Part shown: one piece after another, positions 3,266 through 20,884 of the stretch
How positions within the stretch are numbered: the stretch's first letter is position 1
How the letters are laid out: every line of letters starts with the position of its first letter
Assembly (NCBI GenBank): GCA_944358855.1
Contig: CALVSC010000007.1
Coordinates: forward strand, 1-32,389
DNA length: 32,389 bases
Direction of reading: 5' to 3'
Source of the DNA: an uncultured Bacilli bacterium
Lineage (GTDB): Bacteria; Bacillota_I; Bacilli_A; RF39; UBA660
Notes under the pieces: model-generated
Database searches by the model: none
What the model was told of the DNA's origin: nothing
The model's input: only the letters and a program-made list of their open reading frames with translations
Translations under genes and position numbers: made by a program

Positions 3266-4240
3266 TTATTTTCGCACTTTTTGTATTCCTCTTTGTCCTG
3301 GTTGATCTAGTGAAGTAGTTAATTGTTCTAAATATCCAACTAATGAATTGTATTGTTCTGGTACTGTAGGATGGTTATCGACTTTTAATTTGCCATCATA
3401 GTCTTGAAAAAAAGATAGCATCATTCCATCATAGAAAGTGGTTTTTGGATGGTTAGCTACTGTACTAATAGATTGATTTATTTCTTCAATAATTGGATTT
3501 ACTATATAGCCAGCGATTGTATTAAAATAAGGAAAGTTACCTATTGTTAAATAACTATTATCACTTTGACCGGTAATTAGATCTCTAATTTTTGTTAGAT
3601 ATTTTACTTCTTCTTCATATAATGTTTTTCTTCCTGATTTCGTAAATATAGTTTCTATATCTTTGGGTGTTGGATTATGTAATATTTCATATAAACGTTC
3701 CATTATTAAACCAGAGCAGCCATTGAAAAAAGTAAGGGTCAATTTATCGCTTCCAAAGTTATCTGTAAATCTTAGTTCTCCTTCTGGATAAAATTGCATT
3801 GCTGTTGCTCTATCTACATAGTTTTCAAAAGCTGTATCTCTAAATTCTTCTTTCCATTCATCAAATGATTGTTCAAAGCGCCTTTTTATGTCTGATAAGG
3901 AAGGATTTTGTAATAACATTTCATAGATTTTATCATTAGAATTGTGAGAACATAAAACATAAGAATGTGTTTCTAAATCTAAACCTTGTTGTTCTGCTGT
4001 TTCTAATATATATTCATCTAATTTATTTATTAAAGGATTTACGTTATTACTTACAGCGGACCATCCTGATGCAACAGAATTTCCAATTCCTAGCATTGTT
4101 ACACTTGCAAAGCCTTCTTTTTCTTGAAGTTTTAGTAATTTATCTACTACTTCTTTTGATAGCTTTTTTATTTTTGTTCTAGCTTCTGCTTCACTTAAAA
4201 CGTGATATTTTTTTAATGGTGTTGTTATATTTTTCAACAT
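3266..4240 (-). CDS. Possible SGNH/GDSL-type hydrolase, divergent
   Basis: A cytoplasmic-looking protein of 324 aa with no signal peptide or membrane segment. After a helical N-terminus, the stretch VTMLGIGNSVASGWS (about residues 47-61) resembles block I of SGNH hydrolases, with GNS in place of GDS. A second stretch, YLTIGNFPYFNT (about 231-242), could be block III. KVDNHPTVPEQY near the C-terminus resembles the Asp-His block V, though the spacing is D-x-H, not the usual D-x-x-H. These resemblances are by eye and weak one by one; together they favour an esterase/lipase-like fold. It stands alone between its own promoter and terminator. The start is supported by AGGAGGAAGGAT before the ATG. 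It could also be an unrelated family. Confidence 0.5.
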   Translation of the reverse strand: MLKNITTPLKKYHVLSEAEARTKIKKLSKEVVDKLLKLQEKEGFASVTMLGIGNSVASGWSAVSNNVNPLINKLDEYILETAEQQGLDLETHSYVLCSHNSNDKIYEMLLQNPSLSDIKRRFEQSFDEWKEEFRDTAFENYVDRATAMQFYPEGELRFTDNFGSDKLTLTFFNGCSGLIMERLYEILHNPTPKDIETIFTKSGRKTLYEEEVKYLTKIRDLITGQSDNSYLTIGNFPYFNTIAGYIVNPIIEEINQSISTVANHPKTTFYDGMMLSFFQDYDGKLKVDNHPTVPEQYNSLVGYLEQLTTSLDQPGQRGIQKVRK

Positions 4241-4263
4241 ATCCTTCCTCCTGAGTATGACAT

Positions 4264-4292
4264 ATTATACTATATTTTCTTTCCTTTTTCAA
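4264..4292 (-). promoter_or_regulatory. Sigma-A-type promoter of the SGNH-like gene
   Basis: TTGAAA (4292-4287), 17-nt spacer, TATAAT (4269-4264) on the minus strand. The -35 box lies across the stop codon of the upstream permease gene, and no terminator separates the two genes. Confidence 0.8.
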
Positions 4293-5089
4293 CTTTTACT
4301 TTTTTTCATCAAAACTTCTACTCTATCAATTATAAAATACATGAAGTAGGATATTATTCCTAGTATTACTACTCCTGTTATTACCAAATCAATATTAAAG
4401 ACTTGAGAACCATACATAATTAGATAGCCCAAGCCACTTTTTGATACTAGTAATTCTCCCATGATAACACCAATTAAATTCATTGATATATTTATTTTTA
4501 AGGCACTAATTAAAGTTGGTATATTACTAGGGAGTATGGCCTTTAAAAAGATTTGCTTTTTATTGGCACCTAAAGATTTTAATAAAGTAACATAACTTTG
4601 ATTAGTACTGGAAAATCCTTGATATATAGTTATAATTGTTACAAAGAGACTAATTAATAGTGCCATAAAGATAATGGAGTTTATACTGGCTCCGACCCAG
4701 ATAATAATTAAAGGACCTAATGCCACTTTAGGAAGAGAGTTTAGTATTGTTAAATATGGATCAATTACTTTCGCTATTCTTTTATTACTCCACAGAATAG
4801 TAGCGATTATAAATCCTAATATAGTAGCAATTAAAAAACTAATGATTACTTCATATAAAGTTACTCCTATATGCATAAATAAAGTGTTATCTTTTATTAA
4901 TTGGATTGTTGTTTCTAATACTTCTGTAGGAGAAGAGGATAGAAACGTATTAATTATTTCAAACCTTGATAAGAGTTCCCAGATAATTAAGAAACTAATA
5001 ATTATTAATAGACGAAAAAAGCAAATAAGTCTTTTTTCTTTTTTTTGCTTCTTTAAATACTCTATGTGTTCTTTACTATATGTGGACAT
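4289..5089 (-). CDS. ABC transporter permease, SsuC/TauC/ThiX type
   Basis: Membrane subunit of an importer, 266 aa, about six transmembrane helices after a charged cytoplasmic N-terminus (residues 1-21). The cytoplasmic coupling (EAA-type) loop is recognisable at about 170-190: TLLKSLGANKKQIFLKAILP, with the conserved Gly. The helix with SPTEVLETT after TM1 and the IIWVGAS segment are typical of the SsuC/TauC/ThiX permeases. It is last in the operon; its ATG lies 14 nt inside the ATPase gene and is preceded by GGAGGGATTTAG. The substrate is set by the partner binding protein and is undetermined; taurine, alkanesulfonates, nitrate and pyrimidine thiamine precursors are handled by this family. 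Confidence 0.92.
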   Translation of the reverse strand: MSTYSKEHIEYLKKQKKEKRLICFFRLLIIISFLIIWELLSRFEIINTFLSSSPTEVLETTIQLIKDNTLFMHIGVTLYEVIISFLIATILGFIIATILWSNKRIAKVIDPYLTILNSLPKVALGPLIIIWVGASINSIIFMALLISLFVTIITIYQGFSSTNQSYVTLLKSLGANKKQIFLKAILPSNIPTLISALKINISMNLIGVIMGELLVSKSGLGYLIMYGSQVFNIDLVITGVVILGIISYFMYFIIDRVEVLMKKSKS

Positions 5090-5822
5090 CTAAATCCCTC
5101 CATATTTCATCGTAGTATTTAGAAAACTCTTTACATTTTCTATTATGAATTGGAGTTTTTTTATCGGTTAAGTTTATGTTATATATTTTTTTTACAATTG
5201 CTGGCCTTTTAGATAAAACAACGATTCTATCCGACATACTTATTGCTTCGGCAATATCGTGGGTTACCATAATCGCTGTTTTTCCTTCTTGTTTTATTAT
5301 TTTATAAATATCATCACTAATTGCTAGTCTCGATTGATAATCCAGTGCTGACATTGCTTCATCTAATAATAAAATATCCGGCTTGGTTGCTAGAGTCCTG
5401 ATTAATGCAACTCTTTGTCGCATTCCACCTGATAATCTACTAGGATATTCATAAATAAAGTCTTCTAGTCCATATGTTTTTAATAGTTTTATTACGTATT
5501 CTTTATTTTCTTTTGTTAAATTATTATTGATTTCTAAACCTAATAAACAATTATCTAAAACTGTTCTCCATTCAAATAAAGAATCGTTTTGTAGCATGTA
5601 TCCTATTGTATAGTTTTTTGAAAAGTTTATTTCTCCTTTAGACTTTTCTTCTAGACCAGCTAAAATGGATAATATGGTTGATTTACCACAGCCACTTGGA
5701 CCTACTATAGAAATAAATTCTTTTTCTTTTACATCAAATGATACGGACTCTAATGCTTTTATTTCTCCATCCTGGGTATGAAATAATTTCCCCAAATCAT
5801 GAATGGTTAGTATATTATTCAA
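5076..5822 (-). CDS. ABC transporter ATP-binding protein, SsuB/TauB/ThiZ type
   Basis: Nucleotide-binding subunit of the importer, 248 aa, a single complete ABC domain. Walker A is GPSGCGKST, the Q-loop is MLQND, the signature is SGGMRQR, Walker B is ILLLDEAMSALD and the H-loop is VTHD, so it should hydrolyse ATP. The deduced start is a TTG that overlaps the stop of the binding-protein gene by 8 nt. No strong Shine-Dalgarno lies in front of it, so translation probably depends on coupling to the upstream gene. No ATG is available near the expected N-terminus. Its 3' end overlaps the permease start by 14 nt, giving a tightly coupled three-gene transporter. Confidence 0.93.
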   Translation of the reverse strand: MNNILTIHDLGKLFHTQDGEIKALESVSFDVKEKEFISIVGPSGCGKSTILSILAGLEEKSKGEINFSKNYTIGYMLQNDSLFEWRTVLDNCLLGLEINNNLTKENKEYVIKLLKTYGLEDFIYEYPSRLSGGMRQRVALIRTLATKPDILLLDEAMSALDYQSRLAISDDIYKIIKQEGKTAIMVTHDIAEAISMSDRIVVLSKRPAIVKKIYNINLTDKKTPIHNRKCKEFSKYYDEIWRDLDVHI

Positions 5823-8950: not shown

Positions 8951-10129
8951 AAAATTAATATCAATAATTGCGACTTCTGCTTTGGTACCAACTCTCATAT
9001 TTGGTCCATATACACCTACTCCACTAGTTACTATATTATGCATATTTCCTTTTTTTAAGTATCCATAAGAATTTTCCCACATTACTTTTGTCGTAATATT
9101 TCCAGGAAATAATTGCCCATCATGGGTATGTCCACATAAGTCTAAATCCACTCCTGCTTCTGATAGTTCCTCTAGTTCTCTTGGTTCATGGTCTAAGACA
9201 ATAATTGGTTTTGTTTTATCTATATTTTTTGTAATTTGTTTTGGTGTTTTTCGTGTCGTTATTCCTCTTCCGGGTTTACTATAATCTGGTCTTCCATATA
9301 AATAAAAACTGTCATTTATCCATACCCCTTCATCACGTAATAGAGTAATATTAGCATCTTTTAATAATTCATCCATTCTAACATCACTTTGTTTCTTTTC
9401 CCCTTTTTTACTAAATGTAAAACCGGCTAATACCTTTTCTTCTATATCGTGATTACCATATATTGCATAGACTCCATACTTACTTTCTATTTTTCTTAGT
9501 TCTTGTTTTATTGCTTTCGGATTATCTAATGCTTCATATTCATTATCATAAATATCCCCAGCGATTACGACAAGGTCTGGTTCTTGTTCATTAATTTTTT
9601 CAACCATTCTTTTTACTTGAGGAGTTCCTAAGTTATATCCAAGATGAAGATCAGCTACTAACGCAATTCTTAAGTCATCCATTTTCTCTACTTTTTTATC
9701 AATATCTATGGTATAGTTTGTCGTTCTTATGATTCTAGCATTTACTGCTCCCCAGATACTAACTGTTGCGATTATAATAATACAAATTGTTCCAGCGGTT
9801 ACAAATGTTTTATCACTTCGTACATAGTCTTTTTTTACTTTTTTTACTATCAATCTTATAGCATCAGCGATTAGTACTGTTAAAATTACATATAATAATA
9901 CTCCTAACCAATAATTACCTAATAATTTCATTACTCTCTCTAAGTTTCCAGCAGGAAGAAGAAATCCTAATAATAATGTACTAGCAAAAAACGTATAAAT
10001 AATGATGATGAGTGCTCTTACCCATTTGTTTTTAAAGTGTTTATTACAAGTCTGCATCCATCTTAGTAACCATCTGGCTATATAAAAGTTAATTAATATA
10101 TAAAATGGTGATAAAAATACTGCTATCAT
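8945..10129 (-). CDS. Membrane-tethered metallophosphoesterase (YkuE/YaeI-like)
   Basis: A protein of 394 aa with three to four N-terminal transmembrane helices (about residues 1-20, 38-60, 72-92 and 110-130) and a calcineurin-like phosphoesterase domain (about 150-394). All motifs are present: VADLHLG (DxH), AGDIYDN (GD), GNHD, VLDHEP and GHTHDGQLFP (GHxH), so it should bind two metals. Relatives such as YkuE and YaeI act at the membrane; YaeI is a UDP-2,3-diacylglucosamine pyrophosphatase homologue. The lipid- or envelope-related substrate here is inference. The topology predicts a domain close to the membrane. It lies 13 nt downstream of the DUF975-CmpB gene without a promoter between them, with AAGGGATAATC before the ATG. 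The terminator overlaps its end. Confidence 0.88.
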   Translation of the reverse strand: MIAVFLSPFYILINFYIARWLLRWMQTCNKHFKNKWVRALIIIIYTFFASTLLLGFLLPAGNLERVMKLLGNYWLGVLLYVILTVLIADAIRLIVKKVKKDYVRSDKTFVTAGTICIIIIATVSIWGAVNARIIRTTNYTIDIDKKVEKMDDLRIALVADLHLGYNLGTPQVKRMVEKINEQEPDLVVIAGDIYDNEYEALDNPKAIKQELRKIESKYGVYAIYGNHDIEEKVLAGFTFSKKGEKKQSDVRMDELLKDANITLLRDEGVWINDSFYLYGRPDYSKPGRGITTRKTPKQITKNIDKTKPIIVLDHEPRELEELSEAGVDLDLCGHTHDGQLFPGNITTKVMWENSYGYLKKGNMHNIVTSGVGVYGPNMRVGTKAEVAIIDINFK

Positions 10130-10142
10130 GTGATTATCCCTT

Positions 10143-11924
10143 CTATCTTTCTAGTATTACGGTTTCTATATTTGTTATTCCTTTTCCAACATTTGGTGTA
10201 TTTTTTGAATAAATATTATCTAATACAAATAAAGCTATTAATATTGTACAAACAATAATTAATTTTTTTCTATTAATCTTTTGAATTACATTATCTAGTA
10301 GTGGGGCCAAAATATATACAACAGCAATTCCACCTAGACCAAATACTAGTAATCCTTCTGCACAGATTCTACCATGAAGATTTAAGAAGTATCCACTATA
10401 ATCCCACCATTTTTGACCGTTATATACAAATTCCAAGTAAACTCCTGTAAAATATTCAATCGTTCCACATAGAATTACTGCTGCTAGAAACTGGTGAAGT
10501 GGTTTCGCTCTAAATTTGTTTAATACAGTTAAAATTAAGATACAACCAAAACCATATATTGGTAGCCAAGGCCCTTGCAAAACGCCTCTTTTTACTAATT
10601 CCCCATAAGCTATATAATGCGAAATGACTTCCCAAATCCAACCAGCAAAGGAGAATACAAAAAACATTGCTACAAGAGATAAAATAGAATATCTTCGCAT
10701 ATAGTTGATGGTATCTAATTTCTTTCTTTGATGACGTTCTGGAATGGTAAATAAGCGCATTGGATACTCTCTTTGTCTAATTACATTTTTATATGTTTCT
10801 AGACGTTGATTATTTCTTTCTTCTTGTTCTTCTTTTTCTCTTTCTTTGGTATCACTTAATGAGATTCCTAAAAATTCTGCTAAAACTTTTCTTATTCCTT
10901 TTGGCTTTTCTCTTGTTTCTTTTGGTTTATTTAAAGCAGTTAAAACATCTCCATAGGAATTTTCTAAATCTTCTTTTGTCGCTTTTTGATATAGATATTC
11001 ATCATTCAATTTTTCTATTCCAGGGGTACCTTCTTCTTTTTTTAGTTTTCTTAGATTAGCATAATACTCTGTCATTGTTGCTACTTTATATGGATTAGAA
11101 TAAAGAACTTCTGTAATACCTAGTGTGAAAGCTCCTAAAACGCTCCATCCTAAAAAAGAAACTTCTAGTTTAAAACATTCCCATTTATGGCCATCCATCA
11201 TTTTTCTAGATAGCGTAATGGCATCTAATGATTTAATATTAGGATTTTCTGCTACTATATATGGTACAAGAATATAAGAATATCTTTTTACTACAGCTCC
11301 TACAATGGTCAAACACCATAAACTGTAAAAGGCGGTTGTTACAAAACAAGTCCAAGATGTTTTATTCCAACGTTTTATTCGTAATAGAAATAAAAATCGT
11401 TGCATTGGAACCTTTTCATAGGTTCTACCCTCTAAAAATATTCTTCTGGTTATTACTTGGTACATATTGACAAAGAAAAACCAAATAACAAAACTTAGTA
11501 ATAAACTTAAAGCAATGAAAATAAATGATGTAATGTTGGGGTGCCCCACAATTGAATTAATTCCAGCAATAAATGTTACATAAATAGAACCTGAAGAGAA
11601 ACTGTTAATAATTAAAGCAAAAACACCTCTACTCCTACCTAAAATCTCATTTCCATCTTCAGCATCTTTTTTTATAATTTCTTGATTTGCTTCTTTCACA
11701 ATTTCTTTTCCTTTTTTAGTATCACCTTGTAGGGTAACAGCTACTGCCTCATCTGATTTTTTTGGTTCTGTAACTACATTTTCTGAAAAAGTTTTCGATG
11801 TGGCAAAAGATAAAGAATTGGCAAATTCTGTTCCGATAAAAGAAGCAATTAAGCAAGCTACTAGAAAAATGGCATAATGTTTTTTTAAATTTTTTCTTGC
11901 TTTCTTTTTTAGTTTTTTTCTCAT
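10143..11924 (-). CDS. DUF975 - CmpB-like multi-pass membrane fusion protein
   Basis: Integral membrane protein of 593 aa with two recognisable halves. The N-terminal half (about residues 15-300) looks like DUF975: an amphipathic basic start, a TM at about 17-38, and helices around GSIYVTFIAGIN, FVIWFFFVNMYQVITRRIF and GWSVLGAFTLGITEVLYSNPY. A long charged, coiled-coil-prone cytoplasmic linker (about 300-400, rich in EREKEEQEERNNQR) follows. The C-terminal half (about 400-570) matches the CmpB / 'ABC transporter type IV' family: FAGWIWEV, RGVLQGPWLPIYGFG and WDYSGYFLNLHGRIC. No ATPase domain is attached, and CmpB proteins are not proven transporters. It is first in the operon with the membrane phosphoesterase and divergent from essC. 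AAGGAG lies 11 nt before the ATG. Function unknown; an envelope role is inferred. Confidence 0.8.
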   Translation of the reverse strand: MRKKLKKKARKNLKKHYAIFLVACLIASFIGTEFANSLSFATSKTFSENVVTEPKKSDEAVAVTLQGDTKKGKEIVKEANQEIIKKDAEDGNEILGRSRGVFALIINSFSSGSIYVTFIAGINSIVGHPNITSFIFIALSLLLSFVIWFFFVNMYQVITRRIFLEGRTYEKVPMQRFLFLLRIKRWNKTSWTCFVTTAFYSLWCLTIVGAVVKRYSYILVPYIVAENPNIKSLDAITLSRKMMDGHKWECFKLEVSFLGWSVLGAFTLGITEVLYSNPYKVATMTEYYANLRKLKKEEGTPGIEKLNDEYLYQKATKEDLENSYGDVLTALNKPKETREKPKGIRKVLAEFLGISLSDTKEREKEEQEERNNQRLETYKNVIRQREYPMRLFTIPERHQRKKLDTINYMRRYSILSLVAMFFVFSFAGWIWEVISHYIAYGELVKRGVLQGPWLPIYGFGCILILTVLNKFRAKPLHQFLAAVILCGTIEYFTGVYLEFVYNGQKWWDYSGYFLNLHGRICAEGLLVFGLGGIAVVYILAPLLDNVIQKINRKKLIIVCTILIALFVLDNIYSKNTPNVGKGITNIETVILER

Positions 11925-12051: not shown

Positions 12052-12081
12052 TTATTAGACTAGAGTCAGTGAGGTATGTCT

Positions 12082-15000
12082 ATGAGAGTACTTATTTTAG
12101 ATCAAGAAAAAATTACCCATTTTAATTTACCCAATAAAGTTTCTGGCGTTTATGCTTTTGATTATTTACCAATGGGTTCTAAGATAAAAAGAACCGTCAG
12201 TATTGAAGCAAAAGATGATCAATGGATTCTTAAAAGTAATGAGAGTATTAGTATCGTTGATAATGGAATGATTCAACAGTCTGTTATTTTGACACCATAT
12301 TACTATCAACCTCTTTATATTAACGGAAGACATGATAATATTGGTATTTATTGCATTCCTAACCAGGATGAAAAATTTGGGCGATATGTTATTAATTCCA
12401 ATTCTATTATTGTTGGTAGTTCTAATGATTGCTCTATTACTTATTCTAACGATTTGATTTTACCACAACATTTTGGAATTACAAAAACTGAAAATGGTTG
12501 GTTTATTCAGGCATCTAACGACGTTACTCATTGTACTTATTTAAATGGTAAAAGAGTAATGACTTCTCCTTTAAAAACTGGAGATGTTATATTTGCTTAT
12601 GGATTAAAGATTATTTGGATGGGAACTTTCTTTCAACTTAGTTATCCTTATGAAGTATTTATTAATTCTACACAAATTAGTGGATATATGGAAGAGTTTT
12701 TAGAAGATAATACGAAGTATGACGCTGTTAGTGATGAAGAAGCATCTATTGAATTATATAATGAACATGATTACTTTTTTCATACACCAAGATTAAAGCA
12801 ATCCGTACAACTTGAGCAAATCAATATAGATGGTCCACCTAATTCACAGATGACCGAAGAAATGCCATTCCTTTTAACGATGGGTTCCACATTAACAATG
12901 TTATCTACTTCTGTTGTTACAGGATATACAGCTATTTCTGGTTTAGCAACTGGAGAAAAAGATTTAGGAGATGTAATGCCATCTATCATTATGTGTGCAG
13001 CATTACTAATTGGTACTATTTTAATGCCAAGAATTGCTACTATATATCAAAAAAGAAAAAGAAAGCAAAAAGAAAAATTAAGACAAGAAAAATATACAAA
13101 ATATGTTAAAGATAAAGAAAATGAAATTAATTTAAAATTAGCTAATCAAGCACAAATACTTAGAGATAATAATATTAGTATTGCTGAATGTTATCAATTA
13201 GTGTTTGGAAAAAATAGAACTTTTATTTGGAACAGAGAAATTAGAGATGAAGATTTCTTAACAGTACGTTTAGGAATGGGTACTTGTCCAGCAAAATTAG
13301 AAATCAAGGCTCCACAGGAACATTTTACTTTAGAAGATGATAATCTAGAGCAATTAGTTTTAGATGTTGTTAAAAAGTCTCATGATTTAGAAAATGTTCC
13401 TATTACCTTTTCTTTTTTAGAAAAGAACGTATCAGCATTTATTTGTAATTCTTCTTATAACTTGGAGTTTTTAAATGGTGTATTATTACAGTTATTGACT
13501 TATCATAGTTCTTTAGATGTTAAATTAGTATTTTTACTACCTAGAGAAACCAATGATTTTAATTATGCAAGATATGCTCCTCATTGTATAACAGAGGACA
13601 AAAGCACGCGATTCTTTGCGACAAATATGGAAGATATTAAGAATATCTCTAATTATATTCAAGCAGATTTTGATAAGAGAAAACAAGATTTTTATGGGCG
13701 AACGAACAATACAAGTGATGGTATTCCTAAACAAATTGATCATGATCATGCCTATAAAAACTTCTCCCCTTATTATGTCATTATTACAAACGACTATACA
13801 GCTATTAAGGATATCCCTTTAATTCAAAACGTATTAAAAGCAAAAGATAATTTAGGTTTTTCTTTAACAATCATCGATGACTCTTTACAAAGTTTACCAA
13901 ATGAATGCTCTGCTTTTATTGAAGTGTTAGATAAAGAATGTTGTGTTGTTGAAAAAGAATTAAACAATCAATCACGTTTTTATGCAGATGTTGTTAAAGG
14001 AATGGATATGAGAGCTGTTGTTAATAGATTAGCTAATATTCCTATTGCTTATGCTGATGCTAGTGCTGCTTTACCAAATAGTTTAACCTTTCTTGAAATG
14101 TATCAAGTGGCTAGAATTGAGCAATTAAATATCTTAAACAAATGGAAAGAAAATGATCCAACTGTTTCTCTTCAAGCGCCTATTGGTGTTCATACTAGTG
14201 GAGAGATATTTGAACTTGATTTACATGAAAAAGCACAAGGACCTCATGGATTAATCGCCGGTTCAACTGGTAGTGGTAAATCAGAATTTATTATCACTTA
14301 CGTATTATCTATGGCTGTTAATTATCATCCTGATGAAGTACAGTTCGTATTAATCGACTATAAGGGTGGTGGATTAGCTGGTGCTTTTGAAAATAGAGAA
14401 ACAGGTGTTCGTATTCCACATGTTGTTGGTACAATTACTAACTTGGATACGAGTGATATGAATCGTTCTTTGGTATCTATTAATAGTGAATTAAAGAGAA
14501 GACAAAGAATGTTTAATGAGGCGAAAAATGAAACCGGTGAAAGTACAATTGATATCTATAAATATCAACATTATTATCGAGAAGGTGTTTTAAAAGAGCC
14601 TATTTCTCATTTGTTCATTGTTAGTGATGAGTTTGCTGAGTTAAAAAGCCAACAACCAGAATTTATGAATGAACTTATTTCTACTGCACGTATTGGTCGT
14701 TCCTTAGGGGTTCACCTTATTCTAGCAACCCAGAAACCTAGTGGAGTCGTTAATGATCAGATTTGGTCTAATACTAGATTCCGTGTTTGTTTAAAGGTAC
14801 AAGATCGTAGTGATAGTATGGAAGTTTTGAAAAAACCAGATGCTGCTAGCTTAAAAGAAACTGGTCGGTTCTTCTTACAAGTTGGTTATGATGAATATTT
14901 TGATATTGGTCAATCAGGTTGGTCTGGTGCAAAATATATTCCAGCTGATGCTATTATAAAGAAAACAGATTCTTCCATTAAATTTATTAATAATACTGGT

Positions 15001-16701
15001 AATGTTGTACGTACTGTTGATGATGTTGTGAAAAAGGTAGTAACAAAAGAACATGGAGATCAACTTACTAATATTGTTAAATATTTGGATAATATTGCAA
15101 AATCTGAAAATTATACACCACATAAATTGTGGCTTGATAAAATACCAGCTGAGATTTTCTTAAGTGATTTAGAGAAAAAATATGATTATCAAGCAAAAGA
15201 GTATTATATTAATCCTGTTATTGGTGAATACGATAATCCTGAAGAACAGATGCAAGGTATCCTAACTCTTGATATTACAAATGCTAATACATTAATCTAT
15301 GGTATGGCAGATTCAGGAAAAGAAGACCTTATTTCTTCATTAATCTACTCTTCTATTACTCATCATTCTGTTGAGGAAGTTAATTTTTATATTTTGGATT
15401 TTGGTGCTGAAACTTTAAAAGCATATTCAAAAGATCCTCATGTTGGTGAGGTATGTACAGCAGATGATGGTGATAAAATTTTGAATATGTTTGTCATGAT
15501 TGATAAAGAATTAGACAGACGTAAAGAGCTATTTGTAGATTATGGTGGTAGTTATACAAACTATATTGAGAATAGTGGAGAACACTTACCTCTTATTTCT
15601 ATTATCATTAATAATTATGAAGGCTTTAATGAAACTTTGCCAAAAGTTTCTGATTTAATCGTATCTTTATATCGTGATAGTTTAAAATATGGTATTTCCT
15701 TTGTAGTAGTTGCTGGTAGTGCTAATAGTTTTAGAGTCCGTTTAGCTGAATACTTTAGTAATAAGTTATGTTTACAAATGGCTAATGATGGTGACTATCG
15801 TAGTATTTTAATGTGTGCTAGAAACTTAGTGCCTGCTAAAATATATGGACGTGGTATTACTGGTATTGGAGATTTAAAATATGAATTCCAAACTGCTTAT
15901 ATTTGTAAAAGAAGTGATATTACTAATCAAATAAAAGAAACTGTTACTAAAATTAGTAGTGAAGCTACTTCACATGCTCCTAAAGTTCCAGTTTTACCTA
16001 AAGTTGTTACATTAAATCATGTTATTGATTCTATTCAAGGATTGTCTCACGTACCTATTGGTATAGAAATGAATAGTAAATTACCATATACTTATGATTT
16101 AACTCACGATAAGGCTCATGCCTTTATCTATGATACTTTCCAGACAACAGAGACTTTCTTCTATGCTTTCTTCAAAATACTAAAATCAATTCCTTCTACT
16201 AAGCTAAGAGTACTTGATGTAAAAAATATGTTTGATGTTGCTCAAATGCCAGTAGATTATTATAATGATAAAATTGCCTCTGTAATTAAAGCATTTATTG
16301 ATGAGATGAAAAATCAAGAATATGAACAGATTAAGAGAATTTACTTTATTCATGGCGCTGCTAAATTAAAATCTTGTTTTGATACTAATACAATGCCTAT
16401 TTATCAAGAATTCTTTAAGTTGTTGTCTGAAGTTGACAATACTATAGTTATATTATCTGATGAGTATGAAGATTACAAAACGCTTCAACTTGAAACTTGG
16501 TATCGTGACTTAGTATCTTCTTCATACGGTGTGTGGTTTGGTACTGGTATTGGTAATCAATTAGTATTTAAATTACCTGGATTATCTATGGATATTAGAA
16601 ATGCTAATTATCCAGATATGGCTTTTGCTATTGAAGATGGTAATGCTATTCCTATTAAGAAAGTTACAAATTCTAAGGAGGAAGATGAAAGTGAAAAATA
16701 A
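12082..16701 (+). CDS. essC: EssC/YukBA-type FtsK-SpoIIIE ATPase of a type VIIb secretion system
   Basis: Motor ATPase of the ESX/Ess-type secretion system, 1539 aa, anchored in the cytoplasmic membrane. Regions in order: two FHA-like domains (about residues 1-190, the second with GSSNDCSI near 112); two transmembrane helices (about 262-285 and 295-316); a linker; then three FtsK-type ATPase domains. ATPase 1 has a full Walker A, GSTGSGKSE (about 727-735), and Walker B, LFIVSDEFAE. ATPase 2 has only GMADSGKED (about 1074-1082), with Glu where Ser/Thr should follow the Lys. ATPase 3 (about 1330-1500) shows no Walker A. Loss of function in the distal ATPases is common in EssC proteins, where they bind substrates. 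The start was set at the second ATG (MRVLIL), 7 nt after GAGG; an ATG two codons upstream is too close. The 3' end overlaps esaB. Confidence 0.95.
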   Translation: MRVLILDQEKITHFNLPNKVSGVYAFDYLPMGSKIKRTVSIEAKDDQWILKSNESISIVDNGMIQQSVILTPYYYQPLYINGRHDNIGIYCIPNQDEKFGRYVINSNSIIVGSSNDCSITYSNDLILPQHFGITKTENGWFIQASNDVTHCTYLNGKRVMTSPLKTGDVIFAYGLKIIWMGTFFQLSYPYEVFINSTQISGYMEEFLEDNTKYDAVSDEEASIELYNEHDYFFHTPRLKQSVQLEQINIDGPPNSQMTEEMPFLLTMGSTLTMLSTSVVTGYTAISGLATGEKDLGDVMPSIIMCAALLIGTILMPRIATIYQKRKRKQKEKLRQEKYTKYVKDKENEINLKLANQAQILRDNNISIAECYQLVFGKNRTFIWNREIRDEDFLTVRLGMGTCPAKLEIKAPQEHFTLEDDNLEQLVLDVVKKSHDLENVPITFSFLEKNVSAFICNSSYNLEFLNGVLLQLLTYHSSLDVKLVFLLPRETNDFNYARYAPHCITEDKSTRFFATNMEDIKNISNYIQADFDKRKQDFYGRTNNTSDGIPKQIDHDHAYKNFSPYYVIITNDYTAIKDIPLIQNVLKAKDNLGFSLTIIDDSLQSLPNECSAFIEVLDKECCVVEKELNNQSRFYADVVKGMDMRAVVNRLANIPIAYADASAALPNSLTFLEMYQVARIEQLNILNKWKENDPTVSLQAPIGVHTSGEIFELDLHEKAQGPHGLIAGSTGSGKSEFIITYVLSMAVNYHPDEVQFVLIDYKGGGLAGAFENRETGVRIPHVVGTITNLDTSDMNRSLVSINSELKRRQRMFNEAKNETGESTIDIYKYQHYYREGVLKEPISHLFIVSDEFAELKSQQPEFMNELISTARIGRSLGVHLILATQKPSGVVNDQIWSNTRFRVCLKVQDRSDSMEVLKKPDAASLKETGRFFLQVGYDEYFDIGQSGWSGAKYIPADAIIKKTDSSIKFINNTGNVVRTVDDVVKKVVTKEHGDQLTNIVKYLDNIAKSENYTPHKLWLDKIPAEIFLSDLEKKYDYQAKEYYINPVIGEYDNPEEQMQGILTLDITNANTLIYGMADSGKEDLISSLIYSSITHHSVEEVNFYILDFGAETLKAYSKDPHVGEVCTADDGDKILNMFVMIDKELDRRKELFVDYGGSYTNYIENSGEHLPLISIIINNYEGFNETLPKVSDLIVSLYRDSLKYGISFVVVAGSANSFRVRLAEYFSNKLCLQMANDGDYRSILMCARNLVPAKIYGRGITGIGDLKYEFQTAYICKRSDITNQIKETVTKISSEATSHAPKVPVLPKVVTLNHVIDSIQGLSHVPIGIEMNSKLPYTYDLTHDKAHAFIYDTFQTTETFFYAFFKILKSIPSTKLRVLDVKNMFDVAQMPVDYYNDKIASVIKAFIDEMKNQEYEQIKRIYFIHGAAKLKSCFDTNTMPIYQEFFKLLSEVDNTIVILSDEYEDYKTLQLETWYRDLVSSSYGVWFGTGIGNQLVFKLPGLSMDIRNANYPDMAFAIEDGNAIPIKKVTNSKEEDESEK

Positions 16702-16945
16702 AGTTTTAGTTGAATTAATTGTACCAGAAATAGAAGTTGCTTATGACGTTTATTTACCTATTAATAAACGTATTGGTAATATAATTTGTTTACTTAATAA
16801 AAGTATTGCAGAAATGACTAATGGTGCTTATGTTGGAAGTAATAAAAATGCTTTATATAACCGTTATACAAACGAAAAGTATCATGTTAATGATTTACTA
16901 TATAATACTAATATACGTAATGGTACAACGCTAATATTGCTTTAA
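16685..16945 (+). CDS. esaB: EsaB/YukD-like ubiquitin-fold protein of the type VII system
   Basis: Small cytoplasmic accessory of type VIIb secretion, 86 aa, about the usual EsaB/YukD length. The pattern is ubiquitin-like: KVLVELIVPEIEVAYDVYLP (strands 1-2), a helix IGNIICLLNKSIAEM, then LYNRYTNEKY and the end NIRNGTTLILL, which matches the family's final LxxGxxLxxL strand. It overlaps essC by 17 nt and is preceded by AAGGAGG. From that site the ATG at 16685 is only 3 nt away, while an in-frame GTG at 16691 is 9 nt away, so the real start may be the GTG. A strong terminator follows. In Bacillus and Staphylococcus EsaB tunes or supports secretion, and the exact mechanism differs between species. 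Confidence 0.85.
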   Translation: MKVKNKVLVELIVPEIEVAYDVYLPINKRIGNIICLLNKSIAEMTNGAYVGSNKNALYNRYTNEKYHVNDLLYNTNIRNGTTLILL

Positions 16946-16973
16946 GTCATACTATATAGGTATGACTTTTTTT
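16944..16973 (+). terminator. Terminator of essC-esaB
   Basis: AAGTCATAC-TATATAG-GTATGACTT followed by TTTTT on the plus strand, overlapping the esaB stop codon. Confidence 0.9.
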
Positions 16974-16976
16974 ATG

Positions 16977-17010
16977 CAAAAAAAAATGATAGAATTTTTT
17001 CTATCATTTA
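16977..17010 (-). terminator. Terminator of the WXG100-like operon
   Basis: AATGATAG ... CTATCATT with T-tract on the minus strand, adjacent to the last gene's stop at 17008. Together with 16944-16973 it separates the two converging transcription units. Confidence 0.85.
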
Positions 17011-17304
17011 TTTTCTTTCTATTTTTACGACTTCTAGTGAATTAATATTTTTTTCTATTGTGGATAGAACTCCATCATAGTTTTGATTACTATTTTGAAT
17101 CCAACTTTTTGTTTGTGAGCAAGATTGACTCATAGAACTAAGTTTTCCATTAATAGACCTAAGATATGAAATATAGGCACAGTCTGATGGTATTCTAGCT
17201 CCTGAAATTGAATTTCTGGCATTATTGAAATTTGCTATTGCTCTATCTAGTGCTGGAACTACACTTCTACTTAAACCTGAGTAGTCAAATTTAATTTTTG
17301 TCAT
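17008..17304 (-). CDS. Small helical protein, last gene of the type VII substrate operon
   Basis: A protein of 98 aa with no signal peptide. It appears as two amphipathic helices (about residues 12-36 and 45-92) separated by ISGARIPSDCAY, the general shape of WXG100-like or Lap-type partner proteins. The W-x-G turn is absent; the only Trp (SWIQNS) lies in helix 2. Two Cys (PSDC, QSCSQ) are present. Its ATG overlaps the stop of the preceding WXG100-like gene (ATGA) and has no strong Shine-Dalgarno, so it is probably translated by coupling. It recalls DUF5344-like partners found beside LXG toxins, but I cannot confirm that family. Likely a type VII partner or substrate. Confidence 0.6.
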   Translation of the reverse strand: MTKIKFDYSGLSRSVVPALDRAIANFNNARNSISGARIPSDCAYISYLRSINGKLSSMSQSCSQTKSWIQNSNQNYDGVLSTIEKNINSLEVVKIERK

Positions 17305-17585
17305 ATGATATTTTTATTAGAAGCGATTTCTAAATCGTTTGCTCCTTGTTTTAGTATATTACCATATTTCTGTAGTTCTTTTCCTAGAGCAACATAATCA
17401 GCTTTATTTTTTCTACATATTTCAATAAATTTACTAGCACTTTTTCCATACCATTCATCATTTTCTGATACTTTTTCAAGTCTGTTAAATAACGATTCTA
17501 TTGTTGTTTGATATTCTTTTGTTAATTCTGTAATGTTATTTCCACACTCTCTTACTCTATATGTATCTACTGACATGTCCGCCAT
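17301..17585 (-). CDS. WXG100-family protein with WYG turn
   Basis: Putative type VII secretion substrate of 94 aa. It is a helix-turn-helix hairpin with EWYGKSASKF (about residues 43-52), the W-x-G turn followed by the usual A/S-x-x-F. Helix 1 runs about 10-40 and helix 2 about 48-85. The protein lacks a signal peptide, as expected for this family. No clear YxxxD/E tail motif is present. It is fifth in the operon, with GAGAGGTGATAGT in front of its ATG and its stop overlapping the next gene. It is likely to form a heterodimer with one of the neighbouring small helical proteins; which one cannot be read from sequence. Confidence 0.8.
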   Translation of the reverse strand: MADMSVDTYRVRECGNNITELTKEYQTTIESLFNRLEKVSENDEWYGKSASKFIEICRKNKADYVALGKELQKYGNILKQGANDLEIASNKNII

Positions 17586-17589
17586 ACTA

Positions 17590-17892
17590 TCACCTCTCTG
17601 AAGCTTCTCTTATTTCAGCTTCTTGGATTTGATTATTTAGTAATCGAATTTTATTTTCTATCCAAGGAATTACTTGGTTTCTTAATGTCATTATGATTTG
17701 ATTTGCATCAGCTGCAACACTACCAATTTTATTATGATCAGCTGTAACATCATTTACAACATAATAAGAATTGATACTATTACAATCTCTCATTGCATTG
17801 TATCCATTGTTTAAATATATTAATGTTGTATTTATGCTGTTTAATAATGAATAGTATTGTTGCTTTTTTACTCTCAAACTATATGAAGACAT
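17590..17892 (-). CDS. Small coiled-coil protein of the type VII operon (DUF5082/YwqH-like)
   Basis: A protein of 100 aa, no signal peptide, mostly helical. An N-terminal helix (about residues 5-36, SLRVKKQQYYSLLNSIN) is followed by a Asn/Asp-rich bend with NSYYVVNDVTADHN and a second helix to the end (WIENKIRLLNNQIQEAEIREA). The layout resembles DUF5082 (YwqH) proteins that accompany LXG toxins in Bacillus type VII loci. The match is judged by eye and not secure. It is fourth of six in the operon, with GAGAGGAATTAATTT before the ATG. No Trp-x-Gly turn. Probably a chaperone or partner for secretion. Confidence 0.6.
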   Translation of the reverse strand: MSSYSLRVKKQQYYSLLNSINTTLIYLNNGYNAMRDCNSINSYYVVNDVTADHNKIGSVAADANQIIMTLRNQVIPWIENKIRLLNNQIQEAEIREASER

Positions 17893-17912
17893 AAATTAAT
17901 TCCTCTCTTTTA

Positions 17913-18380
17913 TTATTCAGTATATCTTTGGAAGCTTCCTTCAAGTTCTCCAGCTTGAGACTTGATGTCGCTAGCCATAGTCGTATCTTTCTCTTGATAA
18001 GCTTTGTAAACTTCATCAAGTTTTTGATTAAATTTCAATAAATTACTGATTACACATTCGCATGCAGTACATACAGCTTCAACGAATGCTGTTACTGATG
18101 CAGCATATTCTCCTTTAAATGCTTGTGTTGTGTCTGCAGTTGTTTTTACTTCTTGTAAATGTTGATTTAATTTATCAACATATTCTCTTATTGCTTGTTG
18201 CATAGCTGGTACTTGTGCACCATTAATACCTACAACATCGCCTTGTAATATGGCACCAGCTGCTGCTCCAGCTCTACCAATTACTGATTCAAATAAGCTT
18301 TGCGCATTACTAGTAAGACTTTGAATTGTTGAATTAACATCCCAAGCAACTTTTTGCGCAGCTGTACTTAATGTTCCCAT
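17913..18380 (-). CDS. Helical type VII-associated protein with YxxxD and CxxCxC
   Basis: A protein of 155 aa, the longest of the operon's small proteins, no signal peptide. It has an N-terminal helix (about residues 3-33), an Ala/Gly-rich stretch GRAGAAAGAILQGD (about 35-48), then a helical hairpin (about 58-85 and 94-150) with FKGEY at the turn where WXG100 proteins have WxGxA. YQEKD (about 128-132) fits the YxxxD/E export signal seen after the second helix in type VII substrates. CTACECV (about 104-110) is an odd cysteine cluster for a secreted Gram-positive protein. It could bind a metal or form disulfides. AGGAGGAAATT precedes the ATG. Likely a secreted substrate; family not identified. 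Confidence 0.65.
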   Translation of the reverse strand: MGTLSTAAQKVAWDVNSTIQSLTSNAQSLFESVIGRAGAAAGAILQGDVVGINGAQVPAMQQAIREYVDKLNQHLQEVKTTADTTQAFKGEYAASVTAFVEAVCTACECVISNLLKFNQKLDEVYKAYQEKDTTMASDIKSQAGELEGSFQRYTE

Positions 18381-18396
18381 AATTTCCTCCTATATT

Positions 18397-18708
18397 TTAT
18401 TCAAGTGGTACCATTTCATTATCTTGGTTTGCCCAAGATTCTTCGATTGCAGCAAATTGACCTTCTAATGTACCTTTTAAAGATTCAATTCCTTGCGCAG
18501 TAGTTTCAACAGCTTTTTGTAAGTTACTTACAAAGTTTAACTCTGCTTGACCTTGCCATCCTGCTTCTAGTGCTGTTCTGATTCCATTAATCTCTCTTAA
18601 TAAATTACATGTGTCTGTGATAGCTTTAGTGTTAAGTTCTGCAACATATGCTGCTGCTCCAGTGCGGCTATATCCTTCAGTTAATTCTCCAATACCTAAT
18701 CCGCCCAT
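18397..18708 (-). CDS. WXG100-family protein (EsxA-like)
   Basis: The most typical WXG100 protein of the cluster, 103 aa, presumed type VII substrate. Helix 1 (about residues 20-44), the turn GWQGQAELNF (W-x-G-x-A, about 48-57) and helix 2 (about 54-85) fit the EsxA hairpin. The tail ESWANQDNEMVPLE lacks a clear YxxxD/E. The start was placed at the second in-frame ATG because GGGAGGTG lies 7 nt upstream of it. The first ATG, five codons earlier, precedes that ribosome-binding site and overlaps the previous stop codon. It is second in the operon, directly after the 109-aa helical protein, the usual position for an Esx pair partner. Confidence 0.9.
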   Translation of the reverse strand: MGGLGIGELTEGYSRTGAAAYVAELNTKAITDTCNLLREINGIRTALEAGWQGQAELNFVSNLQKAVETTAQGIESLKGTLEGQFAAIEESWANQDNEMVPLE

Positions 18709-18722
18709 TTTTTCACCTCCCA

Positions 18723-19052
18723 TTATTTTTTATCTGGTATTTCTACCATACCAGCATTTTTGTTAATTTGACTTGCTAAATCTTTTGAGAAATCAATTGT
18801 TTTTTGTTTCGTAGCAATTAATAACTCTGTGATTTTTACAAGGTTATCATTAACAATTGGAAACATGGCTTTTTGATTATTAAATTTTGCTGTTAGGGTT
18901 CTTCCTGCTGAAGTATTTAATATTGTTGATACCTGATCCATTTCATTGGTTATATTGTTAAATATATTATTTATCTTTTCAATATAATCATATAAATCAA
19001 GCACTAACTTATCAATTTTATCTTCAGAGATACCAATAGTGTTTTGTTCCAT
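18723..19052 (-). CDS. Helical WXG100-like protein without the Trp, first gene of the operon
   Basis: A protein of 109 aa made of two long helices (about residues 10-45 and 52-97) with the turn NTSAGRTLTAKF, where S-A-G replaces W-x-G. The spacing and the following aromatic Phe agree with a WXG100-like hairpin. No signal peptide and no Trp at all. As the gene preceding the canonical WXG100 protein it is a good candidate for its heterodimer partner, as EsxB is for EsxA. AGGAG lies 7 nt before the ATG. An inverted repeat and a -10 box lie just upstream, so it opens the six-gene operon. Confidence 0.7.
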   Translation of the reverse strand: MEQNTIGISEDKIDKLVLDLYDYIEKINNIFNNITNEMDQVSTILNTSAGRTLTAKFNNQKAMFPIVNDNLVKITELLIATKQKTIDFSKDLASQINKNAGMVEIPDKK

Positions 19053-19068
19053 ACCATGACTCCTATCT

Positions 19069-19085
19069 ACAGGTAACTACCCTGT
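19069..19085 (-). repeat. Inverted repeat in the leader of the WXG100-like operon
   Basis: ACAGGTAACTACCCTGT (plus strand): 7-nt arms ACAGGTA and TA-CCTGT with one extra base. It lies between the -10 box and the ribosome-binding site, so it could be an operator or an mRNA hairpin. No regulator gene is in the window. Confidence 0.45.
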
Positions 19086-19152: not shown

Positions 19153-19183
19153 AAAAAAAATAGTAGTTTACACTACTATTTTT
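19153..19183 (-). terminator. Terminator of the lipoprotein metalloprotease gene
   Basis: AAAATAGTAGT-gtaa-ACTACTATTTT followed by T's on the minus strand. The gene's TAG stop (19176-19178) is in the 5' arm. It separates this gene from the WXG100-like operon promoter. Confidence 0.9.
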
Positions 19184-20828
19184 GATAGGATCCTGAGTTA
19201 TAGGCTTCATTTGTTGCTCGTAAACTTGCGCTTGCTCTATCGGATACTTCTTCCATTCTTTCAATAATAAAATCTTTTTTGGCACTATCGATTGATAATT
19301 TTTCTGCATTTTCTTGGGTAGGTGTATATGTATTAAATCTTTCTGTTACATCTTCTATTGTTAAACCATTACTATCTGCTAAACTTTGGAAGAAATTATC
19401 TTGAACCCCTACATAATAATCCATAAAGTCTTGATTATGATCTAGTTTTTCAGCATTGGCACAATCTAAGTGACTATTAATATCTCCTTCAAAAGCTCTT
19501 ATTAAGTAGAAGGTATCATCTATCGTTGTTGGATGTTGTTCTAGGTAGTTTGATAAGTTTTCGTAAAACTTCTTTGTTAGAGTTTCACAAACTGATACTT
19601 TGAAGTCTCTTTGTAATTGTACTAACTCATCTTCTGATGCAAGTTCTCCATATACTGGATTATATTGAGCATAGAAGTCATCTCTTTCATTTTGCAATAC
19701 ATCAATTGTATACATCATTTTTATTAATTCTTCTCGTTCTGCTTCACTATCACAACCAAATTGTTCAAATAATTTTTCAGGGTCTTTTTGGAAACATAAA
19801 TATTCCGTAGTATTAGCCGCTACATTATCATCTAGAATGGTTGCCATACTAATACTGTCTAAATAAGATACTAAATATTGATATGTAATTGGTCCGTTTC
19901 CAGTTTGGTTATCCATTGTCTCTTCTGCAGATGCTTCATAAAACCATTGCCAATTTAAAGGATTTACACTTAATTCTCCGTATTCTCTACTAACACCTAC
20001 TTGAATATTATTATCTTTTAGATTATCTTCACAACTTTTTTGAATTAAATGTTTTGCTTCGTGTATCAATACATCACGTTTGGCATCTCTATCTTGATCC
20101 ATTAACTGAACAACATCAAGCATGTTTGGTGAAACAACAAGACAATCATCGTTATTTACATAGGCATTACTTGTTGAAGGTGATGAAAACATTTTTAGGT
20201 TTCCAACAACACAGCGTAATTCGTCCATGTTAATTTCTACTGGTGAGTTTGCTATTTCATAGTTTAACGCTTCCGCTATTACTTCACTAATTGCATTAAT
20301 TTCACTAGTACTTAATTCATTTAAACTAGCTTTTCTATATCCACTTATTGTATCTGAATTTAAATATGCCTCATTGTTTTTTAATACAGCATCCGTAATT
20401 GTTTGGGCATCAAATAAACCTTCACTATTTAAATTAATAGAATGTGTATGTGTTGTTATAGTTTGACGTGGATGTGTATTGGCATAATTTAGAGCTTGTG
20501 GTATTTGATAGAATTCTTCATACGTATATGGTGTTGCTAATTGACTAAGATAAGCTTGGAATTCACTATTCTCTCCATTTGTCATTTGCACTACTGTATT
20601 ATCATATTCTCTACTAGGTGTTTCTTCTAATGTTATTTGTGGTATTTCTTCTTCATAAGTTTGTGTGTATGCTGTACTTTGTGTTAAATCTGGAGCTGTT
20701 TCTGCCTTTTTAGTTCCACAGCCTGGAAAAAATGCTAATCCTGCTACTAATGTTCCTACTAATAAATATTTTGTTTTAAACTTCTTTAATTTAGATAATA
20801 ACTTATCGTTTATAAAATTTAATCTCAT
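19176..20828 (-). CDS. Lipoprotein with HExxH zinc-metalloprotease motif
   Basis: Cell-surface lipoprotein of 550 aa. A basic, long n-region (residues 1-20) is followed by a hydrophobic core and the lipobox FFPGC, with Cys at about residue 37. The mature chain is acidic and Thr/Gln-rich. A gluzincin-type active site is visible: LIHEAKHLIQ (HExxH, about 254-258), and a Glu in EASAEET about 45 residues on that could be the third zinc ligand. The rest shows no family I recognise. It has a near-consensus promoter and its own terminator. It stands directly upstream of the WXG100-like operon, which suggests processing of secreted type VII substrates or of envelope proteins, but no direct evidence links them. 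Confidence 0.75.
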   Translation of the reverse strand: MRLNFINDKLLSKLKKFKTKYLLVGTLVAGLAFFPGCGTKKAETAPDLTQSTAYTQTYEEEIPQITLEETPSREYDNTVVQMTNGENSEFQAYLSQLATPYTYEEFYQIPQALNYANTHPRQTITTHTHSINLNSEGLFDAQTITDAVLKNNEAYLNSDTISGYRKASLNELSTSEINAISEVIAEALNYEIANSPVEINMDELRCVVGNLKMFSSPSTSNAYVNNDDCLVVSPNMLDVVQLMDQDRDAKRDVLIHEAKHLIQKSCEDNLKDNNIQVGVSREYGELSVNPLNWQWFYEASAEETMDNQTGNGPITYQYLVSYLDSISMATILDDNVAANTTEYLCFQKDPEKLFEQFGCDSEAEREELIKMMYTIDVLQNERDDFYAQYNPVYGELASEDELVQLQRDFKVSVCETLTKKFYENLSNYLEQHPTTIDDTFYLIRAFEGDINSHLDCANAEKLDHNQDFMDYYVGVQDNFFQSLADSNGLTIEDVTERFNTYTPTQENAEKLSIDSAKKDFIIERMEEVSDRASASLRATNEAYNSGSYQK

Positions 20829-20855: not shown

Positions 20856-20884
20856 ATTATACTACAAAATCGTCTATTTGTCAA
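20856..20884 (-). promoter_or_regulatory. Consensus promoter of the lipoprotein gene
   Basis: TTGACA (20884-20879), 17-nt spacer, TATAAT (20861-20856) on the minus strand. The -10 is 27 nt before the ATG, exactly as at the adhesin gene (1575-1603). Both share TTTTGTnnTATAATATAGC, then ACAT and GAGGGGGAA. Confidence 0.9.

Follow-up and report, generated by a model that had tools for sequence, protein, structure and literature searches.

The window analysed here, a stretch of 32,389 nucleotides from an uncultured Bacilli bacterium of the RF39 lineage (assembly GCA_944358855.1, contig CALVSC010000007.1), carries a cassette of six small hairpin-like proteins (f, e, d, c, b and a) beside an EssC-type ATPase, a small YukD-like protein and a lipoprotein with a zinc-peptidase signature (MP). 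Its recurrence in many related genomes suggests a working system, which we read, with a probability of about 0.55, as a toxin-free, EssB-less variant of the type VII secretion system (T7SS) that would export hairpin complexes with the help of a surface metallopeptidase. An earlier note on this DNA had described six different WXG100-like proteins in one operon, and all six reading frames are indeed found on the minus strand; the EssC/YukD pair and the peptidase-like lipoprotein at 19176–20828 are neighbours that it did not mention. The genes and signals of the region are the following.

12076–16701, plus strand: ATPase of the EssC type with FHA at the N-terminus (TIGR03928 at 933.4 bits, the cut-off being 778.4; FHA PF00498, 3.1e-8)
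16685–16945, plus strand: small YukD/EsaB-like protein of ~86 residues, placed directly after EssC and homologous among loci
16944–16968, plus strand: terminator-like hairpin between two convergent operons
17008–17304, minus strand: a, predicted helical hairpin of 98 residues, the free-standing form of the N-terminal targeting domain of effectors
17301–17585, minus strand: b, WXG100-like hairpin of 94 residues (WYG; TIGR03930 3.7e-5, below cut-off)
17590–17892, minus strand: c, Lap-like partner protein of 100 residues (PF16888 in 1 of 24 members, weak)
17913–18380, minus strand: d, hairpin-like protein of 155 residues with an FKG turn and a C-terminal YQEKD (YxxxD)
18397–18708, minus strand: e, WXG100-like hairpin (WQG) with a C-terminal WANQD (TIGR03930 1.8e-4, below cut-off)
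18723–19052, minus strand: f, hairpin-like protein of 109 residues with SAG (ESAT6_2 NF035934 1.6e-3, below cut-off)
19176–20828, minus strand: MP, lipoprotein of 550 residues with an FPGC lipobox and a HEAKH...E zinc-peptidase signature, upstream of f
20856–20884, minus strand: promoter TTGACA-17-TATAAT, 12/12 positions, upstream of MP

The assignment of the six proteins to the WXG100-like family is weak when each sequence is searched by itself and becomes firm, at the level of sequence comparison, once genomes are set side by side, because orthologues of all six stand together in other genomes. In single-sequence HMMER searches none of the six reached the curated WXG100 cut-offs (PF06013, 27.3; TIGR03930, 44.85), the best scores being 20.3 and 23.8 bits; the matches of b and e to TIGR03930 and of f to ESAT6_2 all stayed sub-threshold, a, c and d gave no family match above cut-off, and the EspC/ESX-secretion-like Pfam matches of d were weak, every one of them below cut-off. 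The turn motifs are as previously read, with W-x-G in b and e, SAG in f and FKG in d. Across genomes, W-x-G is kept by b in 37/39 sequences and by e in 35/39 and is absent from a, c, d and f; of the four e sequences without it, three are extended at the N-terminus, which displaces the segment scanned, and the remaining one (L089) reads FIG at this turn. The a protein, the only one of the six to be modelled, is predicted by AlphaFold to form a helical hairpin (helices 9–34 and 45–88; pLDDT 86.6). A Foldseek search with this model returned nothing at E ≤ 0.001, and its list is not specific, since WXG100, PE25 and the TelA-LXG/Lap complex appear there mixed with unrelated hairpins.

Conservation was followed in a family sample of 386 genomes. 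The same six proteins are encoded, at 17–33% identity, by L032 and L035, two loci from related genomes. The c profile matched in 49/386 genomes at E ≤ 0.01; 34 places were taken from this list, and the cassette is present at 24 of them. Three more loci came from the lipoprotein search and nine new ones from an EssC-based retrieval of 79 named loci. The resulting table of gene order comprises 38 loci, some of them near-identical or of the same genus; L095 was omitted as a near copy of L094, L038, a large toxin cluster with four of the six families, was excluded from the cassettes, and L085 and L127, where a second EssC shares the cassette of the first, were not counted twice. Iterated family profiles drifted into the hairpins of other clusters, and the counts rest on core profiles instead. 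Strong matches to the d profile (E < 1e-25) occur in 28/386 genomes; the cassette is therefore patchy in the family rather than universal. One genome holds a second strong d match (G335:C25:8266-8694), probably a second cassette. The related metagenome-assembled genome records (uncultured Bacilli, Erysipelotrichaceae and Clostridia, with Candidatus Onthousia at L159) come from rabbit, goat, sheep, chicken and rumen samples.

Gene order resolves the cassette into what, judged from sequence, are modules: e-d, c-b-a and a mobile f. The order is fedcba in 29 of the 38 loci, cbafed in four (with b and a fused in L143), edMfcba in three and something else in two. The e and d genes are adjacent in every locus (38/38) and c-b-a in 36/38, the other two being the b-a fusion of L143 and a locus in which c falls below threshold (L118), while f is mostly the neighbour of e and, in three loci, of c. 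In L140 and L187, from a sister group within the cassette EssC clade, the set is reduced to EssC, YukD and e-d, and the last of these is thereby marked as the minimal pair. Near their C-termini, 22/26 e sequences have an Asp; in d, the first position of the YxxxD motif is aromatic or Met in 27/27 sequences and the last is Asp in 13/27. The suggestion of the earlier note that the set may form a structural or effector complex by itself thus survives, as the cassette is conserved as a unit in 38 loci, usually beside its own EssC, and belongs to one EssC clade. Downstream of a in L085, L086, L090 and L103 stand DUF4176 proteins, followed by FDENGVV-type repeats.

In an EssC tree of 120 leaves, all 34 cassette-labelled EssCs fall in one clade of 45 leaves (support 0.971). 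The other 11 members are L128 and L204, which lie at contig ends, a group of seven, of which L140, L150, L176 and L187 carry e-d only, and L135 and L158. The protein after EssC (16685–16945) has no match in Pfam or NCBIfam, and we take it to be YukD-like from its position and size. Other components were sought in 30 cassette-bearing genomes, of which 22 are at least 90% complete. EssB/YukC was found over cut-off in 0/30 of them and in 0/25 sampled family genomes; the same search detected EssB adjoining EssC in G025, a positive control from another family. EsaA was likewise over cut-off in 0/30; four weak EsaA-like matches occur in two genera, one of them with an internal stop. The genome of the window also contains a second, minimal system (L031, G000:C43, 2996–8242) made of EssC, a YukD-like protein and two proteins of 65 and 71 residues. 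This type is conserved in the genus (L034, L040, L043, L049 and L050), the 65-residue reading frame being uncalled in L040 and L049.

The c-b-a module links the cassette to type VII effectors. The a-domain forms the N-terminal ~95 residues in eight larger proteins and lies internally, after a b-domain, in two more; in related bacteria, such large a-domain proteins are neighbours of c in other type VII clusters. Towards the C-terminus they carry TNT in L186 (E 3e-6), YkuD plus NLPC_P60 in L198 (1e-17) and, in L084, the wall hydrolase domain given below, and several have no Pfam domain there. Fusions of b and a are found in L104, L202 and L143. The a-domain thus stands at the N-terminus of large effectors and b can be continuous with it, so c-b-a is, on homology, the module that provides type VII effectors with partners and a targeting domain, payload-free in the window, and b and a are, by the same comparison, two halves of one targeting domain. 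The a protein of the window ends after its hairpin, with two helices in the model. Among the cassettes themselves, the a protein of L084 (9264–10247) carries a C-terminal wall hydrolase domain (Hydrolase_2, 1.8e-8), and L102 encodes an extra e with a C-terminal CHAP domain (9263–10906). L085 and L127 have tandem EssC systems, and the second system of L085 includes an a-domain protein of 1179 residues whose C-terminal part is HD-like.

The operon of the window contains no recognised toxin or immunity gene, in agreement with the earlier note, and no recognised toxin occurs in any six-gene cassette. The note had regarded a toxin gene in the operon of relatives as an argument against its view, and here the outcome is divided: the cassettes are free of recognised toxins, while the c-a part is, on homology, what targets large effectors in other clusters and a wall-hydrolase domain sits on a or on an extra e in two cassettes. 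The LXG domain (PF04740) is over cut-off in 0/30 cassette genomes and is not found in the window's own genome. In nearly all of the 30 genomes the a-domain is a single stand-alone gene; the a protein of G359 has 327 residues, a few weak or partial matches lie elsewhere, and G303, alone among the 30, has a further a-domain frame, which is 1184 residues long, matches over the full domain and lies in a second EssC cluster. A proposed kinship of two of the small proteins, c and a, to DUF5082 and DUF5344 found next to no backing: Pfam scans of 24 c and 23 a members gave no consistent family, only one of the 24 c sequences weakly matching the YwqH-like PF16888 (E 0.012) and neither DUF appearing among the matches of a.

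The signature of MP and, more tentatively, its modelled fold suggest a gluzincin-like zinc peptidase. In an alignment of the MP1 group (13 sequences, 20–33% identical to that of the window), H256, E257, H260 and E298 are invariant; HExxH is present in 12/13 sequences, E298 in 13/13 and the lipobox Cys in 11/13. A second group, MP2 (469–575 residues, four aligned), matches the MP1 profile around the motif (probability 95.9), and a third HExxH type occurs at the cassettes of L032 and L143, whose proteins are related to each other. The MP1 model (pLDDT 82.3, pTM 0.82), on a second look with VIA, places zinc peptidases at all ranks from 1 to 27 (Z 7.1–6.3), namely M1 aminopeptidases and LTA4 hydrolases with one M30. 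A sequence search of MP1 against solved structures gave chance-level matches only, the second of which (E 1.4) is titled zincin-like metalloprotease.

The peptidase is also associated with the cassette. Counted per unique EssC, MP1 or MP2 accompanies 25/34 cassette systems, or 26/34 with L143, against 0/83 other EssC loci. When the L090/L125/L129 group and L038 are assigned, the figures become 27/35 and 0/84; this EssC group was assigned to the cassette systems by hand, as the cassette is visible in L090 and L093 and L129 runs into the end of its contig. Full-length MP1 (E < 1e-80) is found in 19/386 genomes, 18 of which also have a strong d match. The position and strand of MP around the cassette vary among loci.

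Taken together, these features would fit a secretion machine in which EssC, as the ATPase, and the YukD-like protein form the inner-membrane engine. The e-d pair, with W-x-G in e and a YxxxD/E-like tail in both, may be the core ESX substrate pair, and c-b-a a payload-free targeting module, the homologue of the partner proteins and N-terminal domain by which large effectors are carried in other type VII clusters; f may join one module or the other as a third partner. Given such a substrate pair, a payload-free c-b-a and f, the hairpins would most likely be exported as complexes, either as the product themselves or as a shuttle. MP would be exported by Sec, anchored at the surface and active at the exit, where it might process the exported hairpins or an envelope protein and so make leaving or assembly possible. 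A bolder form of this reading is tentative and, on balance, doubtful: the product would be a six-part hairpin assembly rather than a toxin, matured at the surface by its own membrane-anchored zinc metallopeptidase, and the whole would be an additional T7SS subtype, an independent counterpart, in EssB-less gut Bacilli, of mycobacterial ESX plus mycosin.

By analogy, the nearest functional parallels are mycosin and EssH. The mycosin of mycobacterial ESX is a membrane-anchored, locus-linked subtilisin-like serine protease. The two arrangements share an ESX pair and a membrane-anchored protease linked to the locus, whereas the MP of the cassette is a predicted zinc peptidase lipoprotein of another fold. 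EssH of the S. aureus T7SSb, as described in PMC13059805, is similarly a Sec-exported enzyme that is encoded with the system and acts outside the membrane, but it is a CHAP amidase and MP a predicted zinc peptidase. Compared with type VIIb systems (S. aureus, B. subtilis), the cassette has in common an EssC with FHA over the T7_EssCb_Firm cut-off, a candidate YukD/EsaB-like protein and WXG100-like proteins; it differs in that its 30 genomes are without EssB and without EsaA over cut-off, in having six hairpins against one EsxA, in having no LXG toxin and in its linked surface peptidase. The LXG-Lap1-Lap2 complexes (PMC9600955) likewise place small hairpin partners directly before an N-terminal effector domain, an order that c-(b)-a repeats with large a-domain effectors in other clusters; unlike them, the cassette has an a without payload, no LXG by Pfam, and b and a as separate proteins that are fused in some relatives. 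Among the subtypes T7SSc–T7SSj, T7SSg in particular resembles the cassette as an EssB-less system of few components with an ATPase, a ubiquitin-like protein and WXG100 proteins, but its ATPase is without FHA, which the EssC of the window has (3.1e-8), and it has two WXG100 proteins and the beta-propeller TsgL (PMC11217815). The abstract, Results and Discussion of that paper (Garrett et al. 2024) list no peptidase and no set of six hairpins for any of the eight subtypes T7SSc–j. The literature searched, with subscription papers mostly outside its scope, contained no paper reporting an EssC locus with a peptidase or with six hairpins, nor a T7SS in RF39.

Several observations weigh against a peptidase that serves the hairpins. 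The statistics of their linkage (Fisher p 2.5e-19 for 26/34 against 0/83, with the L090 group left out; hypergeometric p 6.4e-23, with phylogeny ignored) are overstated, because proteins next to cassettes supplied the MP models and the loci, being related by descent, are not independent draws. When any HExxH reading frame of at least 300 residues is counted, the contrast weakens to 25/34 cassette systems against 12/83 others. The motif is shifted in the MP1 of L111 (HESGGH, with one extra residue), Foldseek of the MP1 model found nothing at E ≤ 0.001, and the closest folds are middling (Z ~7). MP1 relatives also occur without a type VII neighbour, one full-length (G063/L115) and six distant (L119–L124). 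The main point against the peptidase being essential is the eight of 35 cassette systems that have none (L082, L083, L088, L089, L103, L105, L134 and L141), some peptidase-less cassettes being cut by contig ends. In L083 the peptidase's place is taken by a lipoprotein (4076–5461) that combines leucine-rich repeats with a transglutaminase-like domain (PF04473, PF01841).

MP might accordingly be, by descent, an unrelated neighbour of six hairpins that work without it, as the eight peptidase-less systems and the wider MP family away from type VII genes would allow. Three HExxH sequence groups (MP1, MP2 and the L032/L143 type) nevertheless keep their place at the cassette while changing position and strand, and MP1 or MP2 stands at 0/84 other EssC loci; we regard such a merely inherited neighbourhood as decidedly unlikely. 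Another division of labour, in the service of cell-wall opening or remodelling, would make an enzyme the active part, either the peptidase or, in relatives, a hairpin-fused wall hydrolase, with the hairpins as type VII carriers or positioners and a role like that of EssH. The Hydrolase_2 domain on a of L084, the CHAP domain on the extra e of L102 and the YkuD and NLPC_P60 domains of the L198 protein point in this direction, as does EssH itself, a Sec-exported hydrolase needed for T7SSb export (PMC13059805). Most cassettes, however, are without a wall-hydrolase domain, and MP is gluzincin-like in signature and fold. Gluzincins are not known to act on peptidoglycan, and wall remodelling seems to us unlikely.

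The hairpins could also be left over from something else. A domesticated remnant, an effector module minus its toxin that is decaying or kept for another cytosolic task, would explain the homology of a and c-b-a to payload-carrying modules; with the reading frames intact, the order and turn motifs kept in 38 loci at very low identity, and an EssC clade of its own, we hold this to be very unlikely. The earlier note had further proposed orphan partners of toxins encoded elsewhere, and the own genome, 74% complete, might indeed be missing such a toxin. Yet the a-domain is single and stand-alone in nearly all 30 cassette genomes (bar G303 and G359) and LXG over cut-off is found in none, so this idea is already largely refuted, and we give it hardly any credence.

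An EssB-less export system for hairpin complexes would bear on an open question in the field, namely whether secreted WXG100 proteins act alone, apart from shepherding toxins. With six hairpins, a private EssC and no recognised payload in many genera of gut Bacilli, the cassette would offer a direct test of that question. The T7SS subtypes described so far would also gain an EssB-less layout and a surface peptidase, and the fusions of b with a suggest a route by which effector targeting domains may have come from two separate hairpins.

In the window, the EssC and YukD-like unit is convergent to the minus-strand f-e-d-c-b-a (19052 down to 17008), in which the genes are spaced by −4 to ~20 bases. 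Since MP lies on the same strand upstream of f and is preceded by a perfect promoter, the operon is probably MP-f-e-d-c-b-a. This promoter is the only perfect one of the region, where promoter-like sites overall are not above chance; terminator-like hairpins number five against 1.7 expected in shuffles. Gene e has a second in-frame ATG upstream at 18723, and the ribosome site belongs to the start at 18708. Between MP and f, a short hairpin at 19069–19085 immediately precedes the ribosome site of f and might have a regulatory role for the cassette. At the far left of the window, 24–1565 encodes an adhesin-like surface protein with thioester (TED) and SpaA domains.

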